A DNA stretch of 64,000 nt, taken from the NCBI RefSeq assembly GCF_000316195.1, contig NZ_JH994111.1:1332840-1396839 (forward strand). Reading direction: 5' to 3'. Both the position numbers and the translations under genes were made by a program. The notes under the pieces were generated by a model. The model searched no databases. It was not told the DNA's origin and saw only the letters and a list, made by a program, of their open reading frames with translations. Of this stretch, positions 24,100-35,743 are shown piece by piece. The DNA is from Brachyspira hampsonii 30446 (lineage in GTDB: Bacteria > Spirochaetota > Brachyspiria > Brachyspirales > Brachyspiraceae). Position 1 is the stretch's first letter. The number at the start of each line of letters is the position of its first letter.

Positions 24100-24346
24100 G
24101 ATTGACTCCTATTTTTTTATAAAAAATTACTAAGAAACTATATACAGTAATTATACTATATATAATAATAATGTCAATTAATAGTTATCATATTATTAAT
24201 ATATCAAAATAGTTTTTAAAAAATTAAATATAATTATTATAAATATATTTTTTAGAACATAAATATTAAATTAGTATTATTAACAAATAAAAAATAAATA
24301 ATTGATAAAAAATAAAAATATATTTATATTATACTCCATAAAAATT

Positions 24347-24865
24347 ATGAGGAGTTTTTATGACAAAAAAATTAAACTTTTATTAACATTATCAATATTT
24401 TTAACTTTAGCATCTTGTGCTAAAAATAATCCAAGTTCTCCTGGAGATGGCGGAAGCACTTCTATACCAGGAAGTGATCATTCTAGTTTCATAATATTAA
24501 AAGGACAATGGATGGAGTCTCAAGGTGATATGGGAGAATATGATATTACAGATACAAGTATTGAACATAGATACCAAAGTGCTCTTGCTGAAACTAGCGA
24601 TTTAGCAGAAATTGCTTGGAACGATGATGGCAAATCAGGAATAATATATGGAAAATATATTACAACTCTTGACAGTAAAAATGGAAAGTACTATGCTTTA
24701 GCATTTAGAAACTTAACAGATACAACAGTAGACTTTGTTCAAGCGGATAAGTCAGGTGATGATACAGCTGATTCATTAGAAGAAGCAAAAACTAAATTTA
24801 CTGAAGCTAACGGTTATATTGATTGGAATAATGTAAAAACATATAACAAAGGTCAATATCACTAA
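24347..24865 (+). CDS. Small lipoprotein, paralogue of the riboswitch-controlled lipoprotein (start disrupted)
   Basis: A lipoprotein with a hydrophobic signal core and lipobox (LTLASCAKN). The mature part matches the protein at 25573-26043 along its length: EYDIT, AEIAWNDDGKSGIIYGKY, YYALAFRNLTDTTV, KTKFTEANGY. Function unknown. The start is odd. The best Shine-Dalgarno (GAGGAG at about 24349-24354) serves the ATG at 24360, which is one base out of frame. The in-frame ATG at 24347 (or TTG at 24302) has no Shine-Dalgarno. One extra A in the A7 run just after 24363 would restore a normal start with the same KKIKLLLTL signal peptide as the paralogue. A terminator follows. Confidence 0.6.
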   Translation: MRSFYDKKIKLLLTLSIFLTLASCAKNNPSSPGDGGSTSIPGSDHSSFIILKGQWMESQGDMGEYDITDTSIEHRYQSALAETSDLAEIAWNDDGKSGIIYGKYITTLDSKNGKYYALAFRNLTDTTVDFVQADKSGDDTADSLEEAKTKFTEANGYIDWNNVKTYNKGQYH

Positions 24866-24891
24866 ATAAATTAATCTGTTAGAAAATTTTT

Positions 24892-24921
24892 GAGAGGGAT
24901 ATTTCAAGTCCCTCTTTTTTT
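24892..24921 (+). terminator. Terminator after the first lipoprotein gene
   Basis: AGAGGGA (24893-24899) pairs with TCCCTCT (24909-24915), then T7. Confidence 0.8.
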
Positions 24922-24931
24922 GTATTCAGTA

Positions 24932-25275
24932 ATAGACTTGTTTCAAAACTCAAATTTTTAATATTTATAGTTTTTTAATTTAATATTTTTTTGATTATAG
25001 TTGGGGCTTCACAGTCGTGCCCCGCTCTGCGTGCTTCGCAAAACCACACTTCTTTTGTGACGCCTGTCCGCCTTCGGTGTGGCACAGGCACAGCCCGCCT
25101 GCGGCGAGAAGCATACGAAGTACGCCTCACTGTGTGTGCCTACGGCAGGCGAAAGACTGCATATTTATATACTAAAATAATAATTTATAAAAACATGTCA
25201 AACATTATTTTATAAATTATAAAATTACGAAATTTTCATATATAATCTTGTCAAGTAGTTTTGAAACAAGTCCAA
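24932..25275 (+). mobile_element. Repeat element 2: GC-rich block with inverted-repeat ends
   Basis: The ends are inverted copies of AGACTTGTTTCAAAACT (24934-24950) and AGTTTTGAAACAAGTC (25257-25272). The inner block, about 25000-25160, is far richer in G+C than anything else in the window and contains several short palindromes (GCCTACGGCAGGC, GCGTGCTTCGC). It shares ordered motifs with element 1 near 19.6 kb. An open frame inside it (24991-25215) is rich in Arg, Cys and Thr and looks spurious. It separates two paralogous lipoprotein genes. I infer a dispersed non-autonomous element with foreign base composition. Confidence 0.6.
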
Positions 25276-25392
25276 TAATTACATAGCATAAAACTATGAA
25301 ATAAATCATTTTACAAAAAAATATAATATTTTGATAAAAAATAACATTATAGCTTGATAGAATAAAAAAAGCATATATAATATACTATATTC

Positions 25393-25532
25393 TGTGGGAA
25401 TGAGGGTGAGAATCCTTCGCTGGCACGCAACCGTAAAGTTTAATTCTATTTTTATAATTTTAAGAATTAACGAAGTCGGATACCATTAAAATAGTCGAGT
25501 GCACTATCTACAAAATTATGCACTCCTTTATT
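25393..25532 (+). promoter_or_regulatory. Cobalamin riboswitch
   Basis: The conserved core is readable in order: GGGAATGAGGGTGAGAATCC (25396-25415), GCTGGCACGCAACCGTAA with the B12-box-like loop, a variable stem (TTAATTCT/AGAATTAA) and GAAGTCGGATACC near 25472-25484. These match the GGGAA, GGTG-AAATCC, GC-GCAAC-GT and AGTC-GGA-ACC blocks of cobalamin riboswitches. Downstream, GAGTGCA (25497-25503) can pair with TGCACTC (25519-25525). Alternatively CTCCTTTATT (25523-25532) can pair with the ribosome site AATAAAGGAG (25557-25566). Translation control by B12 of the lipoprotein gene at 25573 is inferred. The short peripheral stem suggests the compact (class II-like) type. Confidence 0.85.
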
Positions 25533-25572
25533 AAATAGCTTTTAATTTTTAATTTAAATAAAGGAGCATTTT

Positions 25573-26043
25573 ATGCAAAAACAAATCAAAGTTTTATTAA
25601 CACTTCTAATTACTTTATTCTTAGCAGTATCTTGTTCTAAAGACAATGTAACAAATCCAATAAAAACTAAAGAACAAATGCTTCAGCAAAAATGGAAATA
25701 TACTAATTATGATGGAGGATATGATATTACAGCTGATAAAATAGACGATTATGCTGGAACTGCAGTTAATTATTCCCTTTCTATAGAAGAAATAGTATGG
25801 TATTCTGATAATGCCTCAGGAATGATATACTGCAAATATACTACAGCTCCAAATTACAGACCAGAAGTAGCTAATAAATATTATGCCATTGCTTTTAAGG
25901 ATTTAACAGATACAACTGTAAAAATTTCTGGTGCTTATAAAGAAGGAGGAGTTTATGCAACTGATGAATTAGCAGAAGCAAAATTAGAATTCACTGAAGC
26001 TAATGGTTATTTTATTTATTCAGAATTTACTGTAGCAAAATAA
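25573..26043 (+). CDS. Small lipoprotein under cobalamin riboswitch control
   Basis: 156 residues. Signal peptide with lipobox (LFLAVSCSKD, Cys at about 22). The mature domain of about 130 residues is unknown to me and is paralogous to the lipoprotein at 24347-24865 (shared YDIT, IVWYSDNASGMIYCKY, YYAIAFKDLTDTTV, KLEFTEANGY). The repeating W/Y-rich strands suggest a small beta-rich fold. It is the first gene after the riboswitch and its AAGGAG ribosome site is the part that the switch can mask. The context (riboswitch, further lipoprotein, TonB-dependent receptor) suggests a role in corrinoid capture, as BtuG-type lipoproteins have in Bacteroides. That role is inference only; there is no sequence kinship visible. 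Confidence 0.75.
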   Translation: MQKQIKVLLTLLITLFLAVSCSKDNVTNPIKTKEQMLQQKWKYTNYDGGYDITADKIDDYAGTAVNYSLSIEEIVWYSDNASGMIYCKYTTAPNYRPEVANKYYAIAFKDLTDTTVKISGAYKEGGVYATDELAEAKLEFTEANGYFIYSEFTVAK

Positions 26044-26066
26044 ATTAGATTTTTTAGAGGTATCCT

Positions 26067-26624
26067 ATGAAAATTAAAAAATCATATTTGTTAATTATAA
26101 TATTTGCATTAATTATATCTTGTTCTAATCCTTCTACAAATCCTGATAACAATAATAATCAAAATACTTCGTCATCTATAAATGCTGTAACTTCTGGAGT
26201 ACATACTATACAATACGGCAGTAAAACTTCTGAAATTGATGTAACAGATGAAGCTCAGTTAAAAACTTTATGGATTGGTTTAGTAAATGGAAAAACTGTT
26301 TATGAATCAAGTAATTATTCATCTATAAGCGGAACATTTGATACTGAAGGTAATTATTATGATAGTACTGATACAGTAAATATAAGAACAAAATTTATAA
26401 AATGTGCAGTATATGAATATAATAATAAAAAATATCTTGCAGCTGTATATTGGGATAATAAAACAGGAACAGGAATGCAGGAAAGATATAGACTTATAAT
26501 AGCAGATGATGCCGGAGCTGAACAGGCTTGGTACGGCGGAGGAAGTGATGAAAATGTTATACCGGATGCAAATACTCAGTGGACTAAATATGGTTTTGTT
26601 TTCGGATATTTAAAAGAATATTAA
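26067..26624 (+). CDS. Second lipoprotein of the riboswitch operon
   Basis: 185 residues. Signal peptide with lipobox (ALIISCSNPS, Cys at about 19), then an Asn/Ser/Thr-rich linker to about residue 45 and a domain of about 140 residues that I do not recognise. It contains FDTEGNYYDSTDTVNIRTKF, KKYLAAVYWDNKTGTG and ERYRLIIADDAG. It is not clearly related to the other two lipoproteins, though it shares size and tether. It starts 23 bp after the preceding gene with TTAGAGG before the ATG, so it shares the riboswitch transcript. A terminator follows before the receptor gene. Confidence 0.7.
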   Translation: MKIKKSYLLIIIFALIISCSNPSTNPDNNNNQNTSSSINAVTSGVHTIQYGSKTSEIDVTDEAQLKTLWIGLVNGKTVYESSNYSSISGTFDTEGNYYDSTDTVNIRTKFIKCAVYEYNNKKYLAAVYWDNKTGTGMQERYRLIIADDAGAEQAWYGGGSDENVIPDANTQWTKYGFVFGYLKEY

Positions 26625-26695: not shown

Positions 26696-28669
26696 ATGAA
26701 AAAACTAAATATTTACTCTGCAGCATTATTTATTATAATAACTATATTTTTTTATTCTCAAAATATAAATGCTCAGACATACCTAATAAGAGAACTTAAA
26801 GGCGGTATTTGGGTTACTTCTCAAGTAGAAATAACTAATGCATCTCAAACTAATCAAACAAATCAGATTTCAGCACCAAAAGTTCCAATAAAAGCAAATA
26901 ATCGTATAATAACTTCTGAAGAAATAGACAGAATGGGATATAAAAATGCTCAGGAAGTTTTAGCTAATCAGCCTGGATTTGTAAATAAAGGCAGTTATAT
27001 GGGAAATGAAGTTGTTGATCCCGCAGGAGCCAATGGAGACAATATAAAAATATATGTTAATGGCGTACTTATGAATACTGCTAAAGGAAATGCTGATGCC
27101 GGTGTTGATTTAAGAAGAATACCTTCAAATCTGATAGAATCTATTGAAATAATAGGAAACTCTATATATATTACAACTAAAAGTCCGGTTCAGGATATAC
27201 TTTTGATATCATTAGGTTATGGTTCTTATAATACTGTAAGACCGTCCATACTATTTTCCAGAAATATTGATGAACATCAGGTATTTACTTTCACGGCAGA
27301 TTCATACTACAGCGACGGTAATTATTATTATGATTTTATTAACTCTTCAGGAGACAGGATACAAGGAAATTTAAAAGATAATAGGCAGTTTATAGTAAAC
27401 TCATCAGCCAACTATAAATATACATTCGATAATAAAGATTATATAAATGTATTTGCTAATATATCATATTCTAGTTCTGCCGCACAATACGAAATTCCTC
27501 CTATAAATAAAACAGATTCTTGGTTTACTTTTACTACTCTTACATCTTCAATATCATACAATGGATTTTCTGATATTTTAGATTATACTGTTACTTTATC
27601 ATATTTATTTGATTCATTTGTAGACAGACCTTATTATCAGAATGGGAAATTTATATCAGATTATAAATCGCATGCTATAGCTTTAAATACATCTTTATCA
27701 AGAATGGATGAATTTATACCAAATACTATCACAATGTATAATAAACTAACACCTGAATATAGATATGATATTTTAACAGAGGATACAAATTCCATAGAAA
27801 CTAACTTTTATTATTATCCCCAAAGACATTCTCTTTCATTAAAATATGAAATGCAGTTATCTTTCGGATATTGGGATAATGCTTCACCAATATTTACATT
27901 ACTTCCAAGTATAAAATATGAATATCAAAATGAAGTATTTAGAAATCAAGAAAATAAAAATTATTTAGCATATAATGTTGGATTTAATTTAAATTTTTAT
28001 AAAGGCTACGGATTATATTTTGGTTATATGAGTGATTATACAGCCCCCACATTTAATGATTTGTATTACGGAACTTTTAGTAATCCTTATCTACTGCCTG
28101 AAAGCTATAATCAATTACTTACAAAATTAACATTAGAACCCGTTACAAATTTGAAAATAGAAGCATCTTATGCCTATACAACATATACAAATAAAATAAT
28201 TTGGTATAGTAATACCCCTATAAATGTTGATACGGCAGTTTCTCATATAGTTACGCCAAGCATAAGTTATGATATACCATTTGCAGTGTATCATAAGATA
28301 AAAACAAAATTAGGTTATTCTTATCAGCTTGCATATATGGGTAAAGATAAAATGCCTAAAATAGGATTGCCTGAACATGTTATAAGTGCATTATTAGGAT
28401 ATGACTTTATACCAAAAAATAAAGTATTAAGCTCATTATCATTGAATATTTACTATACCTACTCTGTTCCAAGACCTTTAACAGATTATATGCCTATACG
28501 ATACTCTGAAGCATTTCATGATTTTAATATATCATTCTATTCTATATGGTTTGAGCATTTAATATTTTCTATGCATTTTAAAAATATTTTTAATAAAACG
28601 CCTGTACTTTCTACATATTCAGTTGCCAAGCCTTTTACTTGGGAATTTGAAATTGGATATAATTTTTAA
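26696..28669 (+). CDS. TonB-dependent outer-membrane receptor, BtuB-sized
   Basis: 657 residues. The signal peptide (to about residue 26, NINAQ) is followed by an unusual segment of about 45 residues and a plug domain (about 72-165: RIITSEEIDRMGYKNAQEVL, NIKIYVNGVLMNT, IPSNLIESIEIIGN). A 22-strand-type barrel follows, ending in a C-terminal phenylalanine (FEIGYNF), the outer-membrane insertion signal. Such receptors import vitamin B12, siderophores or sugars. Size close to BtuB (about 614 residues) and position after a cobalamin riboswitch suggest corrinoids. There is no Shine-Dalgarno; a TATAAT lies 10 nt before the ATG but with a poor -35, so its own promoter is uncertain. No tonB/exbBD genes are in the window. 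Confidence 0.85.
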   Translation: MKKLNIYSAALFIIITIFFYSQNINAQTYLIRELKGGIWVTSQVEITNASQTNQTNQISAPKVPIKANNRIITSEEIDRMGYKNAQEVLANQPGFVNKGSYMGNEVVDPAGANGDNIKIYVNGVLMNTAKGNADAGVDLRRIPSNLIESIEIIGNSIYITTKSPVQDILLISLGYGSYNTVRPSILFSRNIDEHQVFTFTADSYYSDGNYYYDFINSSGDRIQGNLKDNRQFIVNSSANYKYTFDNKDYINVFANISYSSSAAQYEIPPINKTDSWFTFTTLTSSISYNGFSDILDYTVTLSYLFDSFVDRPYYQNGKFISDYKSHAIALNTSLSRMDEFIPNTITMYNKLTPEYRYDILTEDTNSIETNFYYYPQRHSLSLKYEMQLSFGYWDNASPIFTLLPSIKYEYQNEVFRNQENKNYLAYNVGFNLNFYKGYGLYFGYMSDYTAPTFNDLYYGTFSNPYLLPESYNQLLTKLTLEPVTNLKIEASYAYTTYTNKIIWYSNTPINVDTAVSHIVTPSISYDIPFAVYHKIKTKLGYSYQLAYMGKDKMPKIGLPEHVISALLGYDFIPKNKVLSSLSLNIYYTYSVPRPLTDYMPIRYSEAFHDFNISFYSIWFEHLIFSMHFKNIFNKTPVLSTYSVAKPFTWEFEIGYNF

Positions 28670-28834: not shown

Positions 28835-29965
28835 ATGGAATTCATATTAAATACCAAAATAATATCTGGGCATAATGCTCTATTAGAATTGGATCTTTCA
28901 AAATCTAAAAGAGTTTCCATTTTTACAGATAATAATATGCTCAAAATCGGTGCCTGCAATACAACAATAGAATTAATAAAAAAAAATAATATTGATTATG
29001 AAATTTTTTCAGATATAGAACCGGATCCTAGTTTTGAAATAGTTATAAAATGTTTAAGTAAGATTTTAACATTCGAATCTGATACCATAATAGCTATAGG
29101 CGGAGGATCTGTAATAGATACTGCTAAATCAGTAATATATTTTGCTTTAGAAATAAATAAAAGAATGTCAAGCGGTTTGAAAAAGCCTTTTTTCATAGCT
29201 GTGCCTACTACAAGCGGTACAGGTTCTGAGGTTACTTCTTATGCAGTAATAACTGATAATAAAACCCATACTAAAGTACCTCTAGTTTCAAATGAAATGT
29301 TTCCTGATATAGCATTATTAGATTCTCAATTTACTTTAACCGTTCCTCCTAGAATAACAGCTGAAACCGGAATGGATGTTATGACTCATGCCTTTGAATC
29401 TTATGTATCTATTAATTCAAGTGCATTTACTATGCCTTATAGTGAGTATGCTATAATAGGTGTTTTTAATAATATTTCAAAAGCTGTTCATAATGGAAAG
29501 GATATTAAGGTAAGAATAGCTATGCATGAATTATCATGTACTGCCGGTATAGCTTTTAATAATGCTGGTTTAGGTTTGATACATGCTATGGCACATGCAC
29601 TTGGAGGAAGATTCAGTCAGCCTCATGGAAGAGCGAATGCAATATTAATGCCTTATGTCATAGAATATAATGCTGAGCATTGCAGTAAGTCTGCTTCTAA
29701 ATATGCTAAAATTATAAGACTTTTAAATGTTAAAAATATAGATGATGATATTACTGCAAGTAAAATATTAAAATCTATAATTTTAGAATTAAATAAATCA
29801 ATAGGAATAAATCAGAAAATAACCGACTATGGTGTAGATAAATCAGAATTTGAAAATGCAATAGAGGAAATGGCTTCACATGCTATTAAAGATGTATGTA
29901 TATTAACTAATCCTGTTAAGCCTAGTTTGGAAGATATCAAAAATCTATATAGAAATCTTATTTAA
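28835..29965 (+). CDS. Iron-type (group III) alcohol dehydrogenase
   Basis: 376 residues. An NAD(P)-binding N-terminal domain with GGGSVIDTAKS (about residues 90-100) is followed by the helical metal domain with conserved ligands: Asp in ETGMDVMTHAFE, and the histidines in GLIHAMAHALGG and QPHGRANAI. These are the Fe-ADH signatures. Members reduce aldehydes or oxidise alcohols such as butanol, 1,3-propanediol or lactaldehyde; the substrate cannot be fixed. A TAGGAG site precedes the ATG. It seems to be a single-gene unit between the receptor and the ion-channel genes. Confidence 0.92.
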   Translation: MEFILNTKIISGHNALLELDLSKSKRVSIFTDNNMLKIGACNTTIELIKKNNIDYEIFSDIEPDPSFEIVIKCLSKILTFESDTIIAIGGGSVIDTAKSVIYFALEINKRMSSGLKKPFFIAVPTTSGTGSEVTSYAVITDNKTHTKVPLVSNEMFPDIALLDSQFTLTVPPRITAETGMDVMTHAFESYVSINSSAFTMPYSEYAIIGVFNNISKAVHNGKDIKVRIAMHELSCTAGIAFNNAGLGLIHAMAHALGGRFSQPHGRANAILMPYVIEYNAEHCSKSASKYAKIIRLLNVKNIDDDITASKILKSIILELNKSIGINQKITDYGVDKSEFENAIEEMASHAIKDVCILTNPVKPSLEDIKNLYRNLI

Positions 29966-29991
29966 ATATAATATTTTAAATAAAAAATATT

Positions 29992-30019
29992 TTGCAATTT
30001 TAATTTACTTTAGTATAAT
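29992..30019 (+). promoter_or_regulatory. Promoter of the first CASTOR/POLLUX-like channel gene
   Basis: TTGCAA (29992-29997), 16-nt spacer and a perfect TATAAT (30014-30019). Just downstream the leader can form a short hairpin (AATCTTTT with AAAAGATT). Confidence 0.5.
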
Positions 30020-30051
30020 CTTTTATATATAAAAAAGATTATGAGTTTTTT

Positions 30052-31812
30052 ATGATAAAAGATATATCCAAATATATAAAATATAGAATTGACAGAATGC
30101 TTAATAAAGGGCTTTTCTATCAATTAATGCTTTTAGTATTTGCAATAATAATTCTTCTTTTAATAGTATCTATATTTATAATAGTATTTTTTCAGTATCC
30201 TCCTAAAGATGCATTTTGGGATAGTTTGATGCAGTTTATAGATACAGGAAATATATCATCGGTAGAAGGCAGCACAGGTATTGTATTAACTTTTCTTATG
30301 GTAACTTTTATAGGAGTATGCGGCTGGGGTTCTCTTATAGCGATGATTAATAAAGCACTTCAGGATAGAATTAATAATTTAAGTAAAGGCAATGCTTTTA
30401 TTATGGAAAAAAATCATTCTATTATATTAGGATATGGTGAAGAGGCTTTGACTATAGTTGAAGAGTTTATTATGGCTAAAGTAAAAACTATAATTATACT
30501 ATCCGAACATAATGTTGATATAATAAGAAAAAGAATATCCTTTATAAAAGGAGCTAAAAAAACTAATATAATAATAAGAGAAGGATCACCAAGCAGAATA
30601 GAAAATATCAAACTTCTTAATATAGCAAAATCTTCAAGCATATCAATAATAAATAATGATGATACAGAGTCATTAAATATACTTCTAGCTTTAAAAAAGA
30701 TAGTCGAAGAAGAAGAACTTGATAAAAAAATCAATATATGCGTATTAGTTCATGAAGAGGATACTATTGAAATAATAAAATCTATTGAAGAAAAAAATTT
30801 CGTCATACATGTAATTTATAAATATGAGATATTATACAAACTAATAGCTCAAAGTATTATTTATACAGGACTTAGCAATGTTTATGAAGATTTATTTTCT
30901 AATGATGGAAATGTATTTTATATAGAAACAGATCATGATTTTAACGACTGCAAATTTGAAGATGCTGCTTTGAAATATCTTGATAAGGGAATGATACTTC
31001 TTGGAATCACAAAAGAAGATAGAAGTCAGTTGTTAATACCAAATTATGATTATGTATTAAAAAAAGAAAACAGACTTGTAATACTTTCAAGAAATAATAA
31101 TGATGATAATATAAAAGAATATCCTGATATAAAACCAAGCATAATAAAATATAAAAATAATATATTATTAATATGCGAAGAAAACAGATATGATGAAATA
31201 ATAAAAGAGATTTCTGAATATATGGAAAATCATAATACAAGTATGATTAGTTATGCTTCTATAAAATCTCAAAAAAATAAATATAAGTTTATGCGTGAAA
31301 AACTAAAAGAAGAAAATACTACAAAAATAGTTTTAATATCAGAAGATAATGTTACTGATGTAAAAAGTATTAATATACTTTTAATTATAAGACAGATTAT
31401 AAGAAAAGAAAATTTCAATATAGCTATACTCTCTTTATTAAACTCTATACAAAAAAGGAATTTAATATATTCTGATGATGTAAGAGATTTTATAGTAAGC
31501 GGTAAATTAATAGGTATGCTTATGGCTCAGGCTTCTATAAGTTCAAATATATTGTATATTTTCTATGGTCTTCTAAGTAAGAATGGAAAAGATATAATAA
31601 TGTCGCCCTACTCTGATTATTTTAATGAATCAAAAAGTTTTAAAGATGTTTATTTATATTTACTTAGAAAAAAAATTATCATTATAGGGGTAAAAAGATA
31701 TAATGATGTTATTATAAATCCTAATAATGATTGTATGTTAGACAATAAAGATGAAATAATCATTATCACTAACTATGTACTTGAAGAAGAAAATGAAGAA
31801 TTAATTTTTTAA
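30052..31812 (+). CDS. CASTOR/POLLUX-like ion channel, copy 1
   Basis: 586 residues. Two N-terminal membrane helices (about 20-50 and 82-102) flank a pore-like segment FWDSLMQFIDTGNIS, comparable to the ADSGNHA filter region of plant CASTOR/POLLUX. Next comes KGNAFIMEKNHSIILGYGEEA, matching the KG-xxxIE-NHxLILGW link into RCK-type Rossmann domains, which fill the rest of the chain. In plants these are nuclear-envelope cation channels; bacterial relatives are uncharacterised. The protein here probably acts in the inner membrane as a gated cation channel (inferred). A close paralogue follows 85 bp downstream, so the pair may form a heteromer. Confidence 0.75.
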   Translation: MIKDISKYIKYRIDRMLNKGLFYQLMLLVFAIIILLLIVSIFIIVFFQYPPKDAFWDSLMQFIDTGNISSVEGSTGIVLTFLMVTFIGVCGWGSLIAMINKALQDRINNLSKGNAFIMEKNHSIILGYGEEALTIVEEFIMAKVKTIIILSEHNVDIIRKRISFIKGAKKTNIIIREGSPSRIENIKLLNIAKSSSISIINNDDTESLNILLALKKIVEEEELDKKINICVLVHEEDTIEIIKSIEEKNFVIHVIYKYEILYKLIAQSIIYTGLSNVYEDLFSNDGNVFYIETDHDFNDCKFEDAALKYLDKGMILLGITKEDRSQLLIPNYDYVLKKENRLVILSRNNNDDNIKEYPDIKPSIIKYKNNILLICEENRYDEIIKEISEYMENHNTSMISYASIKSQKNKYKFMREKLKEENTTKIVLISEDNVTDVKSINILLIIRQIIRKENFNIAILSLLNSIQKRNLIYSDDVRDFIVSGKLIGMLMAQASISSNILYIFYGLLSKNGKDIIMSPYSDYFNESKSFKDVYLYLLRKKIIIIGVKRYNDVIINPNNDCMLDNKDEIIIITNYVLEEENEELIF

Positions 31813-31897
31813 TATTATTTTCTTTACTTTTTACACATAAAACATATAATTATTAATAAAAATATAATCATATAAAGCATATAAAAGAGATGAGTTT

Positions 31898-33682
31898 ATG
31901 TCATTAATAGATAAATTGTCCAAATATATAAAATACAGAATAGACAGAGTATTTAATAAGGGCTTATTATACCAATTAATGATATTGGTATTAATCATAG
32001 TGATATCATTATTTATTATATCTGTAATAATGAAAATACTATTTAACTACCCTATTTTAGAAGCATTTTGGGATAGTTTAATGCAATTCATTGACATAGG
32101 AAACATATCGGCAGCCGAAGCAGACATAGGATTTAATGGTGTAGTTATTATTTTTTTAGGAGTAACATTTTTTGGTGTTTGCGGCTGGGGTTTATTAATT
32201 GCTATGATAAATAATTCATTACAAGAGCGTATAAAAAACCTTAGCAATGGAAATGCATTCATAATGGAAAGGAATCATTCTATTATACTTGGATATGGAG
32301 AGGAAGTTCTAACTATTATAAGTGAGTTTATATCAGGAAGAGCCAAAAAAATAGTTTTATTATCCGAAACAAATCCAGATGAAATAAAAAAAAGAATATC
32401 ATTTTTTCCTAATTATAAGAGAACAAATATTGTAGTAAGAGAAGGAAATCCAAGCATATTTGAAAATTTACAAATGCTTAATATAGAAAGAGCTCATAGC
32501 GTTACAATAGTAAATGATGATGATGTTAAATCATTAAAAATTTTATTGTCATTAAAAAAAATATTAAAATCTGCATCCCATATAAAAAAAATAGATATAT
32601 GTATACTAGTTAATAAAAAAGAAAGTATAGAAATTATATCATCTATAAACGACAGCGATTTATTTGATATACATATAATTTATAAATATGAAATACTTTA
32701 TAAATTAATAGGACAAAGTATTACATATACAGGATTAAGCAGCATTTATCAGGAATTATTTGATGTAAGCGGAATAGACATAAGAATAGAATACAATAAT
32801 CAAAATGAAACATTTGAATCTCTCTCTTCAAGTTATTTAAATAAAAGAGAAATATTAATTGGATTAGTTTATGAAGATATTTCTGAAATTAATAAAGTAA
32901 AAAAAATAAAAAAGAGTTTATTGATACCAAATAATGATTATATAATAAAAGGAAAAGATAAACTTGTAATACTTTATCAAAAAGAAGAGAATATACAAAA
33001 TATTGGTACAAGTATTCATATGACAGATAAAATAATATATGATCATAATGTTCTTTTAATATTAGATAGAAAAAAAGAAAATGAAATTATAAAAGAAATA
33101 TCTCAGTACACAGAAAAAGAAAAGATAGTAAAACTCTATTATGAAGATATAGAAAATGCAGAAATAAAAAAAGATTTTATCGCATCAAAAATAGCTGAAA
33201 ATAAAATAAGTAAAATAGTATTAATATCAGAAACTTTAGAAACAGATATTAAAGCAATCAATATTCTATTAATAATAAGAAGAATAGTTAAAGATCATTA
33301 TGACATTCCTATTCTTTCTTTAATGAGTTCTATAGAAAATAGGAATTTAATAGACTCTAATGATATAAGAGATTTTATAGTAAGCGGTAAACTTATAGGA
33401 ATGCTTATGGCAACAGCTTCTAATAATTCTGATTTGCTATATGTATTTAATGATCTTCTTACTAAAAATGGAAATGATATTATTATGGTTCCTTATGAAA
33501 AATATTTTTGTAATAATGATAGCATGGAATTTAAAAAAGTATATACTGAATTACTTACAAAAAATATAGTGGCCATAGGAGTTAAACATAAATCTAATAT
33601 AATATTAAATCCTAAAGCTGATGATAAAGTTAATAGAGAATGTGAAATAATAATTATAATAGATGAAAATATAAAAAAATAA
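31898..33682 (+). CDS. CASTOR/POLLUX-like ion channel, copy 2
   Basis: 594 residues, the same plan as its upstream neighbour: KYIKYRIDRVFNKGLLYQLM, pore segment FWDSLMQFIDIGNISAAEAD, then NGNAFIMERNHSIILGYGEEV and RCK-like domains. Near the C-terminus both copies share IRDFIVSGKLIGMLMA. The two copies are clearly a tandem duplication that has diverged (many substitutions, with the pore loop and RCK link most conserved). The filter loop differs by Ile for Thr (FIDIGNIS against FIDTGNIS) and by the following residues. The gene ends 2 bp before the convergent small ankyrin gene. Confidence 0.75.
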   Translation: MSLIDKLSKYIKYRIDRVFNKGLLYQLMILVLIIVISLFIISVIMKILFNYPILEAFWDSLMQFIDIGNISAAEADIGFNGVVIIFLGVTFFGVCGWGLLIAMINNSLQERIKNLSNGNAFIMERNHSIILGYGEEVLTIISEFISGRAKKIVLLSETNPDEIKKRISFFPNYKRTNIVVREGNPSIFENLQMLNIERAHSVTIVNDDDVKSLKILLSLKKILKSASHIKKIDICILVNKKESIEIISSINDSDLFDIHIIYKYEILYKLIGQSITYTGLSSIYQELFDVSGIDIRIEYNNQNETFESLSSSYLNKREILIGLVYEDISEINKVKKIKKSLLIPNNDYIIKGKDKLVILYQKEENIQNIGTSIHMTDKIIYDHNVLLILDRKKENEIIKEISQYTEKEKIVKLYYEDIENAEIKKDFIASKIAENKISKIVLISETLETDIKAINILLIIRRIVKDHYDIPILSLMSSIENRNLIDSNDIRDFIVSGKLIGMLMATASNNSDLLYVFNDLLTKNGNDIIMVPYEKYFCNNDSMEFKKVYTELLTKNIVAIGVKHKSNIILNPKADDKVNRECEIIIIIDENIKK

Positions 33683-33684
33683 TA

Positions 33685-34026
33685 CTATTCAATAAGCTTT
33701 ATTATATCAATATAATTTTTTTGCTTGGCATAGAATAAAGCATCATTACCATGTTTATTCACTATAGATTTATCAGCATTTGCTTTAATTAATAATTCTA
33801 CAACTTTAATATGTCCTTCCATACATGCCAATATAAGAGCAGTGTTTCCAACATCATCTTGTACATTAACATTAATATTTTTAGCAATAATTTTTTCTAT
33901 AACATCTTCATCTCCAAATATTGCTGCATCCAAAAAAGTTTCTTCATCTTGACTAAGAGGATATAGTTTATTAAAAGAGATAAAAGTTATAGATATAATT
34001 ATTAATATAAGTATAGGTTTTTTCAT
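33685..34026 (-). CDS. Small exported ankyrin-repeat protein
   Basis: 113 residues. A hydrophobic signal peptide (ILILIIISITFISF) is followed by three ankyrin repeats (about residues 28-112), the central one being the canonical VGNTALILACMEGHIKVVELLIKANAD-like unit. It probably binds a protein partner in the periplasm. It has an AGGAGG ribosome site and faces the ion-channel genes, convergent with a 2-bp gap. Confidence 0.8.
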   Translation of the reverse strand: MKKPILILIIISITFISFNKLYPLSQDEETFLDAAIFGDEDVIEKIIAKNINVNVQDDVGNTALILACMEGHIKVVELLIKANADKSIVNKHGNDALFYAKQKNYIDIIKLIE

Positions 34027-34076
34027 AAAAAATGTCCTCCTATTTCTATTATCGGAGAAAAATTAATTTATAGTTA

Positions 34077-34119
34077 AAAAAATAAAAACTATTCTCAAAT
34101 AATAATTTAAGAATAGTTT
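34077..34119 (-). terminator. Terminator of the tRNA-Ile/tRNA-Ala unit
   Basis: On the minus strand AAACTATTCT pairs with AGAATAGTTT (34110-34119 and 34087-34096), followed by TTTATTTTTTT. Confidence 0.75.
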
Positions 34120-34129
34120 AATAAAGATG

Positions 34130-34203
34130 TGGAGGTTATGGGGATCGAACCCACGACCTACTGCGTGCAAGGCAGTCGCTCTCCCAAACTGAGCTAAACC
34201 CCC
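34130..34203 (-). tRNA. tRNA-Ala (TGC)
   Basis: The minus strand folds as a full cloverleaf: acceptor GGGGGTT/AACCTCC, D-arm GCTCAG...GAGC, anticodon stem ACTGC/GCAGT with loop CTTGCAC (anticodon TGC), and T-arm with GGTTCGATCC. The 3' CCA is not encoded (discriminator A followed by CAT). Confidence 0.95.
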
Positions 34204-34228
34204 GTTATATGAAAAGAACCTGAGCGTG

Positions 34229-34302
34229 TGGGCCTGGGAGGAATTGAACCACCGACCTTTCGATTATCAGTCGAACGCTCTAGCCATCTGAGCTACAGGC
34301 CC
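34229..34302 (-). tRNA. tRNA-Ile (GAT)
   Basis: The minus strand folds with acceptor GGGCCTG/CAGGCCC, anticodon stem TTCGA/TCGAA, loop CTGATAA (anticodon GAT) and T-loop GGTTCAATTCC. CCA is not encoded. It is transcribed first, 25 bp before tRNA-Ala. Confidence 0.95.
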
Positions 34303-34332
34303 TTAAAATTATTCATCAACGATATGTGTTAG

Positions 34333-34360
34333 ATTATAGCATATTTAAAAAAAATAGCAA
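34333..34360 (-). promoter_or_regulatory. Promoter of the tRNA-Ile/tRNA-Ala unit
   Basis: On the minus strand TTGCTA (34355-34360), 16-nt spacer and a perfect TATAAT (34333-34338), about 30 nt before tRNA-Ile. Confidence 0.65.
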
Positions 34361-34399
34361 GCATTTTTTTTATATTTTTATAAAACTTTATAAAATATG

Positions 34400-34427
34400 T
34401 TGTAAAAAAACTATTTAATATTATAAT
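34400..34427 (+). promoter_or_regulatory. Promoter of the AI-2E family permease gene
   Basis: TTGTAA (34400-34405), 16-nt spacer, TATAAT (34422-34427). The ATG at 34436 lies only 8 nt after the -10 box, so the mRNA would start at or next to the start codon. Confidence 0.5.
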
Positions 34428-34435
34428 ATAAGAAT

Positions 34436-35743
34436 ATGATTGGTAAAAATAATTTTTTTTCTAAAGATAATAATTCTTTAATACATAATAAAATTTTGAT
34501 TATTGGAGGAGAAATACTATTAGTTGCAATAGTATTCTCAGCATTTTTTTATTTTTGTTATTTGATTAGAGAGATAATCAACCCTATTATATTGTTTCTT
34601 ATACTTATAGCGGCATTAATACCTTTTTGGAAATATATATGGGCAAAAACTTCAATAGTATTAATATTAGCACTATTTACATTATGGGTAATTAAAGAGG
34701 CAGGATATTTGGTAGCTCCATTTATTTGGGGAATATTTATTGCGTATATGTTTGATCCTTTAATAACAAAAATGCAAAGAAAAATTCCTAGAATAGTAGG
34801 TGTATTATTAATATATATACCATTGCTGATATTAGCTATAATATTTTTCATATTCATACTTCCTAGAACCATAGAACAAATTGAAGTGATATTAAAAACA
34901 TTACCGCAGTATGTAGATAAAATATACAACTCTATATCAGATATGCTTATAACACTATCTGGAAAATTAAATAGGACTATAGGAAAAAGTTTTGATATAA
35001 ATTTAGAAATAGATTCAAAAGCTATAAATGACTTTTTATTCGGAGATAGCGGCGTAATAACTTTAATGTATAAAAAAATTATAGATTTTAGATTCCAGAA
35101 TATAAACAGCATAACCAAAATATTCAGTATAATATTTTCATACTTTGTAATACTTCCATTTGTAACTTTTTATCTGATGCTGGATTTTCAAAATATCAAA
35201 GGAAGAATAATAAAACTAATTCCTATGAGATGGCAAAATTCTGTAAGTGATATAATAAAAAATTCAAATTATATAATAAATGGATATATAGTTGGAATGA
35301 CTATATTAGCTGTATCATTTTTCGTAATAACTTATATACTTCTCTCTATAACAAACACTAAATATGCATTTATATTAGCTTTACTTAGAGGAATTCTAAA
35401 CTACATACCATTTATAGGACCATTTGCAGCATTTATCTCAGCATTATTCATAGGAGTAATTACAGAAGAAATATGGTGGTATGGAGCTTTAAAAATGTGT
35501 ATAATATACGGAATTATACAAGTAATAGATTCAGGAATAATGGCTCCTAAAATATTAGGAAAATCAGTAAAGATACACCCAATAGCAGTAATGTTCAGCA
35601 CAATTATAGGAGGAGTTCTTTTTGGTTTATTAGGAGTATTATTTGCAGTTCCATTTTGCGGAATCATACTTATAATAATAAAAAACTTTTTTAATAAATA
35701 CTATCATTCAAAATTTTATACTTTAACTAAAAGAGGCGAATAA
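34436..35743 (+). CDS. AI-2E family transporter (PF01594 permease)
   Basis: 435 residues with about eight to nine membrane helices. The family features are visible: WGIFIAYMFDPLITKM, the amphipathic ISDMLITLSGKLN region, LLRGILNYIPFIGPFAAF and PKILGKSVKIHPIAVMFS. Members include TqsA (AI-2 export) and Na+/H+ antiporters; which applies here is unknown. No Shine-Dalgarno precedes the ATG, in line with the leaderless promoter upstream. The next gene starts on the base after its stop codon. Confidence 0.85.
   Translation: MIGKNNFFSKDNNSLIHNKILIIGGEILLVAIVFSAFFYFCYLIREIINPIILFLILIAALIPFWKYIWAKTSIVLILALFTLWVIKEAGYLVAPFIWGIFIAYMFDPLITKMQRKIPRIVGVLLIYIPLLILAIIFFIFILPRTIEQIEVILKTLPQYVDKIYNSISDMLITLSGKLNRTIGKSFDINLEIDSKAINDFLFGDSGVITLMYKKIIDFRFQNINSITKIFSIIFSYFVILPFVTFYLMLDFQNIKGRIIKLIPMRWQNSVSDIIKNSNYIINGYIVGMTILAVSFFVITYILLSITNTKYAFILALLRGILNYIPFIGPFAAFISALFIGVITEEIWWYGALKMCIIYGIIQVIDSGIMAPKILGKSVKIHPIAVMFSTIIGGVLFGLLGVLFAVPFCGIILIIIKNFFNKYYHSKFYTLTKRGE

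Follow-up and report, generated by a model that had tools for sequence, protein, structure and literature searches.

Two adjacent CASTOR/POLLUX-family genes in the spirochaete Brachyspira hampsonii, a core copy and an accessory copy

Why does a gut spirochaete carry, side by side, two genes that resemble the nuclear calcium channels of plants, and do their products form one channel or two? We address this question for a locus of Brachyspira hampsonii 30446 (NCBI RefSeq assembly GCF_000316195.1, contig NZ_JH994111.1), where two tandem open reading frames, here genes A and B, occupy positions 30052-33682 of the 64,000-nucleotide stretch that we analysed (the window; contig positions 1,332,840 to 1,396,839, forward strand). 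We show that A and B are members of the CASTOR/POLLUX/DMI1 family. They are likely to be tetrameric, inner-membrane CASTOR-type cation channels, with A as the core and B as an accessory subunit gene, and to be gated differently from their plant relatives.

Family assignment and predicted fold

The features of the two genes are as follows (RCK, regulator of K+ conductance).

30052-31812, + strand: gene A, CASTOR-family channel subunit of 586 amino acids, the core orthologous copy of the genus (open reading frame, PF06241, PDB matches, AlphaFold2)
30112-30375, + strand: pore module of A, with outer helix 21-47, pore helix 51-63, filter and inner helix 75-108 (AlphaFold2)
30235-30258, + strand: selectivity filter of A, FIDTGNIS; D64 corresponds to CASTOR D265 and T65 to the CASTOR S/A position (sequence, alignment)
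30394-31101, + strand: RCK1 of A, about residues 115-350 (AlphaFold2 and alignment)
31150-31776, + strand: RCK2 of A, about residues 367-575 (AlphaFold2 and structural alignment)
31813-31897, + strand: spacer between A and B, 85 nucleotides (sequence)
31898-33682, + strand: gene B, second CASTOR-family subunit, 594 amino acids, an accessory and sporadic copy (open reading frame, PF06241, PDB matches, AlphaFold2)
32087-32110, + strand: selectivity filter of B, FIDIGNIS; D66 is kept, and I67 (codon ATA) stands where orthologues have T (sequence, alignment)

Both proteins match the Pfam profile Castor_Poll_mid (PF06241) in two stretches each; A reaches 62.7 bits and B 37.2, above the curated cut-off of 26.7. 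Their best relatives of solved structure are DMI1 and CASTOR: against PDB sequences, A scores 75.9 bits with DMI1 and 66.1 with CASTOR (MthK at most 29.7), and B scores 60.8 and 58.3, respectively (MthK at most 20.8). A profile built from 18 family members recovers CASTOR at 344 bits, MthK at 45, and GsuK at 24. TrkA_N reaches 13.3 and 19.6 bits in the two proteins, below its cut-off of 23.8, and TrkA_C is also below its own; in a six-frame search of the genome, a single TrkA_N stretch of B comes to 24.2 against 23.8. A typical TrkA_N protein (90.5 bits) is encoded separately in the same genome. No NCBIfam model matched A or B. The profiles thus do not move the pair into another RCK family, be it TrkA/KtrA or K+ channels, and the CASTOR/POLLUX-like identity proposed by an earlier, sequence-only reading of the window stands. 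Membership here means descent within the family, not calcium gating; we treat the calcium ligands discussed below (cluster II) as a regulatory trait rather than a family criterion.

A and B are divergent paralogues, as had also been proposed, with 54% identity across 577 aligned positions. Across the whole genome (3.04 Mb, 4 contigs), a PF06241 profile search gives three matches, all inside A and B, and no further family member. A is 97% identical to a Brachyspira innocens ATCC 29796 protein, in agreement with the spirochaete origin given in the earlier reading. Ratios of nonsynonymous to synonymous substitution (dN/dS, Nei-Gojobori NG86 method) are 0.032-0.120 for A (8 pairs) and 0.086-0.257 for window B compared with six B sequences, whole or fragmentary (6 pairs); these values are rough, synonymous changes being high in many pairs. 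Both genes are under purifying selection, B being less constrained than A, which indicates that they are real genes.

AlphaFold2 single-chain models, built as monomers from alignments of 12 closely related sequences, have a mean predicted local distance difference test score (pLDDT) of 73.1 and a predicted template modelling score of 0.69 for A, and of 74.1 and 0.68 for B. Each model has an outer helix, pore helix, filter loop, and long inner helix, followed by two Rossmann-type RCK domains; there are only two transmembrane helices. The models therefore bear out the proposed link from the pore into RCK domains. With Foldseek, CASTOR and DMI1 chains are the top six matches for A and for B. VIA-align places A best on the CASTOR ring, the four CASTOR/DMI1 entries scoring Z 30.0, 29.7, 29.3, and 29.3 (root-mean-square deviation 3.0-3.6, 424-432 residues aligned), with Slo2.2 next at Z 23.0. 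B is likewise closest to the CASTOR ring (Z 29.4, 28.6, 28.4, and 27.8; deviation 3.1-3.6, 425-428 aligned), followed by potassium channel 8hir at Z 23.9. Slo channels overall lie at Z 19-24 to the two models.

The wider bacterial family

PF06241 matches occur in 102 of 392 Spirochaetota genomes vs none of 14 control genomes. From these 102 genomes we sampled, among the matches listed, 30 loci (L004-L033), 24 Brachyspiraceae regions, and 28 further regions, of which L095 (short) and L097 (no match) yielded no row for the alignment. Family members are also found on plasmids of Deinococcus, Streptomyces, and Nonomuraea, of which we sampled 6 of 8 matches. The resulting alignment holds CASTOR and 94 rows of at least 450 amino acids, out of 99 sequences (97 open reading frames from the loci plus the two window proteins); of the five shorter pieces left out, four are parts of broken B or C genes (C being a third paralogue, described below) in L035 and L045. 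Viral contigs contained no relative, none of 80 pattern stretches being confirmed.

The plasmid members are annotated as “potassium transporter TrkA,” “NAD-binding protein,” “NAD-binding lipoprotein,” or “hypothetical protein,” or carry no annotation. The “potassium transporter TrkA” label on the CASTOR-family protein of a Deinococcus plasmid (L107, 2989-4893) is probably misleading.

The best bacterial rows reach 260 bits against the plant CASTOR ring, compared with 62 for A and 52 for B. A quick tree of 43 rows groups CASTOR with Spirochaetota, Deinococcus, and Actinomycetota rows (support 94) and sets Brachyspiraceae apart (99); all trees here are quick trees with support from the Shimodaira-Hasegawa-like approximate likelihood ratio test, and the plant side is represented by the gating-ring chain. 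On this tree, other bacterial members thus stand closer to the plant channels than Brachyspira does. We found no study of a bacterial family member in the open-licence literature (subscription papers were not covered), and within that scope the earlier statement that bacterial members are unstudied holds.

The selectivity filter

Both filters have the form D-x-G-N, with the essential Asp and without TVGYG, and the motif confirms that the pore loop is kept, as had been claimed. The filter Asp is present in 28 of 30 Brachyspira rows and 51 of 56 other Spirochaetota rows. At the filter, our plant comparison is with the printed CASTOR motif, which Kim et al. (2019, PMC6697748) give as AD265[S/A]GNHA. 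They attribute the difference between DMI1 and CASTOR/POLLUX to the residue after the filter Asp, and A and B differ at exactly this CASTOR S/A position: where plants have a small A/S, A has T and B has I.

This residue varies across the 94 rows (T 31, A 27, P 21, G 6, S 5, gap 3, I 1), and the sole I is window B. Four of five B rows have T, as A does, although two of the five come from broken genes; the orthologous codons are ACA or ACC, vs ATA in window B. Because the I is unique to window B and its orthologues have T, the alignment indicates that the T/I difference arose privately in this genome and reflects no conserved division of labour. The sequence-only reading was thus right that the filters differ here, and wrong if a general A/B difference was meant; a T/I pair as the rule is ruled out by its single occurrence in 94 rows.

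Some relatives have other filters. A distant PF06241 subfamily in other Spirochaetota (L093, L096, L099, L094) has LLGPDSL, LLGPDAL, or LMSSDSI at the filter stretch; the D-x-G motif is absent and the equivalent of CASTOR E493 is kept. Two full-length members on Streptomyces plasmids (L105, 2758-4899; L106, 2965-4962), one of them annotated “NAD-binding lipoprotein,” have gaps at the D-x-G columns and are possibly non-conducting relatives.

Calcium-ligand positions

PMC6697748 lists E493, S345, D553, and D554 as the cluster-II Ca2+ ligands of CASTOR, and D442 and D444 as cluster-I acids. Outside Brachyspiraceae, all 62 rows have E at the E493 position, and 55 of the 62 have D at D553 and likewise 55 at D554; in the 30 Brachyspira rows the corresponding counts are 0, 0, and 6. 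At E493, S345, D553, and D554, respectively, A has V288, a gap, N348, and N349, and B has D, a gap, K, and E. A pairwise phmmer alignment of A with CASTOR gives the same residue pairing. The two other Brachyspiraceae rows keep E493, with E at 553 and N at 554. As a control, we took the 23 columns conserved in at least 95% of outside rows: at 18 of these, at least 90% of Brachyspira rows agree, and only two, E493 among them, are lost in all 30.

In this alignment, none of the 30 Brachyspira rows has the complete set of cluster-II ligands, which makes plant-like calcium gating of the Brachyspira channels doubtful. The earlier link to plant calcium signalling is weakened to this extent, while family and pore are kept. 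At the cluster-I columns, the A clade has E in 16 and N in 4 rows at 442, and D in 20 of 20 at 444 (A-clade and non-A tallies were sorted by tree); window A has acidic residues (E/D) at both positions. B has K or R, and E. Columns 442 and 444 are variable in other bacteria as well.

History of the array

Among 26 Brachyspira genomes, 22 have an A match; two of the four without are less than 90% complete. In a tree, 20 rows form the A clade (support 83; one long row, L091, was flagged). The remainder fall into a second clade (support 99) with B, the third paralogue C, and the copies L034, L036, and L051, which are single or displaced. The array site is marked by a conserved right-hand neighbour:

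33685-34026, - strand: small ankyrin-repeat protein, convergent to A and B (Pfam Ank_2, 1.3e-15, and synteny)

In the 20 genomes with A, the gene adjoins the ankyrin gene in 10, lies elsewhere in four (the B. pilosicoli group, one of which, G151, has the B-like copy L051 at another site), and has B and/or C beside it in six. The closest genome by A (G065, 98% identity) has A adjoining the ankyrin gene and no B. Thus A is without B or C alongside in 14 of 20 genomes, and because of this an obligate form of the A+B heteromer that the tandem arrangement had suggested to the sequence-only reading is unlikely; we rejected it as the obligate state, B and C being often lost or frame-broken as well. 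An optional heteromer is possible.

At the conserved site the order is A-C-B on one strand. A and B are intact in the window and in L054, and A, C, and B in L055. In three of the six arrays B and/or C is frame-broken: C is intact and B broken in L048, both are broken in L035 (B. alvinipulli), and B is broken in L045. Assembly errors may account for some of these breaks; both L045 and L055 (also numbered L062 and L066) are metagenome-assembled. L034 and L036 have a single non-A copy only. The pattern is best explained by an old A-C-B array with repeated losses of C and B.

The window has no C. In all three C copies (L048, L055, and L061, the B. alvinipulli copy), the filter reads F(I/V)ATGNIS, with Asp replaced by Ala, and dN/dS between the two intact C genes is 0.09. 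This conserved, Asp-less C is the best hint from these comparisons that some paralogues may act only in mixed channels.

Other observations at and near the locus

An ankyrin protein is present at the array site in the relatives that share the site, and in L036, L056, and L057, too, there are ankyrin matches close to the family gene. In a draft of Brachyspira sp. G79 (L041, 5745-7501), gene A has a frame change near the C-terminus, a draft error or real. Upstream in the window, three consecutive short secreted or lipoprotein-like open reading frames, two alike in layout, occupy 24302-26624 and are followed by a TonB-dependent receptor-like gene at 26696-28669. A scan found no terminator-like sites in 29800-34500, and 56 promoter-like matches vs 44.4 (standard deviation 5.8) in AT-rich shuffles, close to chance; both scans are uninformative in such AT-rich DNA.

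Discussion

We propose that A and B each form a two-helix pore with an Asp-x-Gly-Asn filter, which would be opened by a tandem RCK ring. A would be the core channel, probably a homotetramer, sufficient in most species. B would be an accessory paralogue from the ancestral A-C-B array, less strongly held by purifying selection, and may assemble either by itself or into mixed tetramers. From the chemistry of the filter, divalent or mixed cations are the most likely permeant ions, without selection for K+. With the cluster-II set absent from all 30 Brachyspira rows, the ring probably responds to a different cytosolic ligand, or to calcium at the cluster-I cleft alone.

Several points weigh against this proposal. 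Brachyspira sequences are generally divergent too: at an 85% threshold, 22 of 78 columns are lost in all 30 rows. D stands at the E493 position in 10 of 10 non-A rows and in four of the 20 A rows; with E at 554 as well, window B could retain some calcium binding. The outside rows were mostly found with PF06241, which spans E493-D554, and are biased towards keeping the ligands; the six plasmid rows, found by tblastn, agree with them nonetheless (E493, D553, and D554 in 6 of 6 each). The structural models, built on few and close relatives, fall below a pLDDT of 50 in the filter loop and the linker from the second transmembrane helix to the RCK domains (A residues 66-70 and 100-114). Selectivity predicted from one Asp extrapolates from one plant channel.

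B might instead be a redundant paralogue heading for loss, with I67 a functionless mutation of AT drift. Most relatives, including the closest genome, lack B or have a broken copy, and B evolves faster than A; the T-to-I change occurs once in 94 rows and is a C-to-T change, the direction favoured by AT-rich drift. However, B is intact across 594 codons, keeps all core motifs, and is still under purifying selection (dN/dS 0.09-0.26), and we regard this reading as possible but doubtful.

Alternatively, A, B, and, where present, C may co-assemble, with B and C as modulatory subunits that alter conductance via their filters (DIGN in B here, ATGN in C). Such an arrangement fits a same-strand tandem array in the order A-C-B at one conserved site. 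The dN/dS between intact C genes despite the loss of Asp suggests that an Asp-less subunit is selected for; in a homotetramer this loss is expected to abolish conduction, by the CASTOR D265N result in PMC6697748. Yet A alone in most genomes, the broken copies in half of the arrays, and the two genomes with only a single non-A copy speak against co-assembly, which we consider unlikely. A bolder version, in which the array is modular, altered or Asp-less subunits set conductance or selectivity by co-assembling with A, the pairing is an independently arisen bacterial counterpart of CASTOR/POLLUX, and the ring has been freed from cluster-II calcium control to follow another ligand, would be quite improbable.

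That A and B are ordinary RCK-gated K+ channels of the MthK/GsuK type or TrkA/KtrA regulators is very improbable: the low MthK scores, the sub-cut-off TrkA matches, and the one marginal TrkA_N stretch of B are far outweighed by CASTOR-type matches in sequence and fold, K+ channel identity being rejected on the Pfam, PDB-sequence, and 18-member profile scores and the lack of TVGYG, and a soluble TrkA/KtrA regulator on the transmembrane pore module of both proteins, on TrkA_N falling below cut-off in the protein search, and on the separate, typical TrkA_N protein of this genome.

The locus bears on the evolution of calcium gating. Most bacterial members keep the plant cluster-II ligands, which suggests that calcium gating may predate plants. 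Brachyspira has lost these ligands and kept the pore, and its contrast with other bacteria offers a direct test of calcium gating. The natural filter variants of one array, DTGN, DIGN, and ATGN, provide a handle on whether the Asp and its neighbour set divalent selectivity.

Comparison with known systems

The nearest characterized systems are the nuclear Ca2+ channels CASTOR of Lotus and DMI1 (POLLUX) of Medicago (structures 6o6j, 6o7a, 6o7c, and 7vm8). To our knowledge, their mechanism is known from plants alone. A and B share with them the pore helix with a D-x-G-N filter, the inner helix, the tandem RCK ring fold (Z 28-30), and the PF06241 repeats. They differ in their low identity (about 16-20% in structural alignments), in the missing cluster-II Ca ligands, in their bacterial host without a nucleus, and in having two transmembrane helices, whereas the plant channels have four predicted helices, the last two forming the pore. 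PMC6697748 reports recordings with a two-helix construct, LjCASTOR-2TM, so the pore part suffices; the same paper (2019) notes that a CASTOR structure including the pore is still needed. Two-helix bacterial members that keep the filter Asp would be convenient for solving it.

Other bacterial PF06241 proteins, from Spirochaetota and from Deinococcus and Streptomyces plasmids, resemble A and B in length class, domain order, and, in most, the filter Asp. Their filters are mostly D-[A/P/S/G]-G-[A/T/N], while those of Brachyspira are D-T-G-N; they mostly retain the cluster-II acids that the cut-down Brachyspira cleft does not, and the bacterial group closest to CASTOR does not include Brachyspira. 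The K+ channels MthK and GsuK share the layout of a two-helix pore followed by RCK domains; unlike them, A and B lack the TVGYG filter, and similarity is far lower. BK/Slo channels have the same tandem RCK gating-ring fold (Z 19-24), with lower similarity, and A and B have neither their voltage sensor nor their K+ filter.

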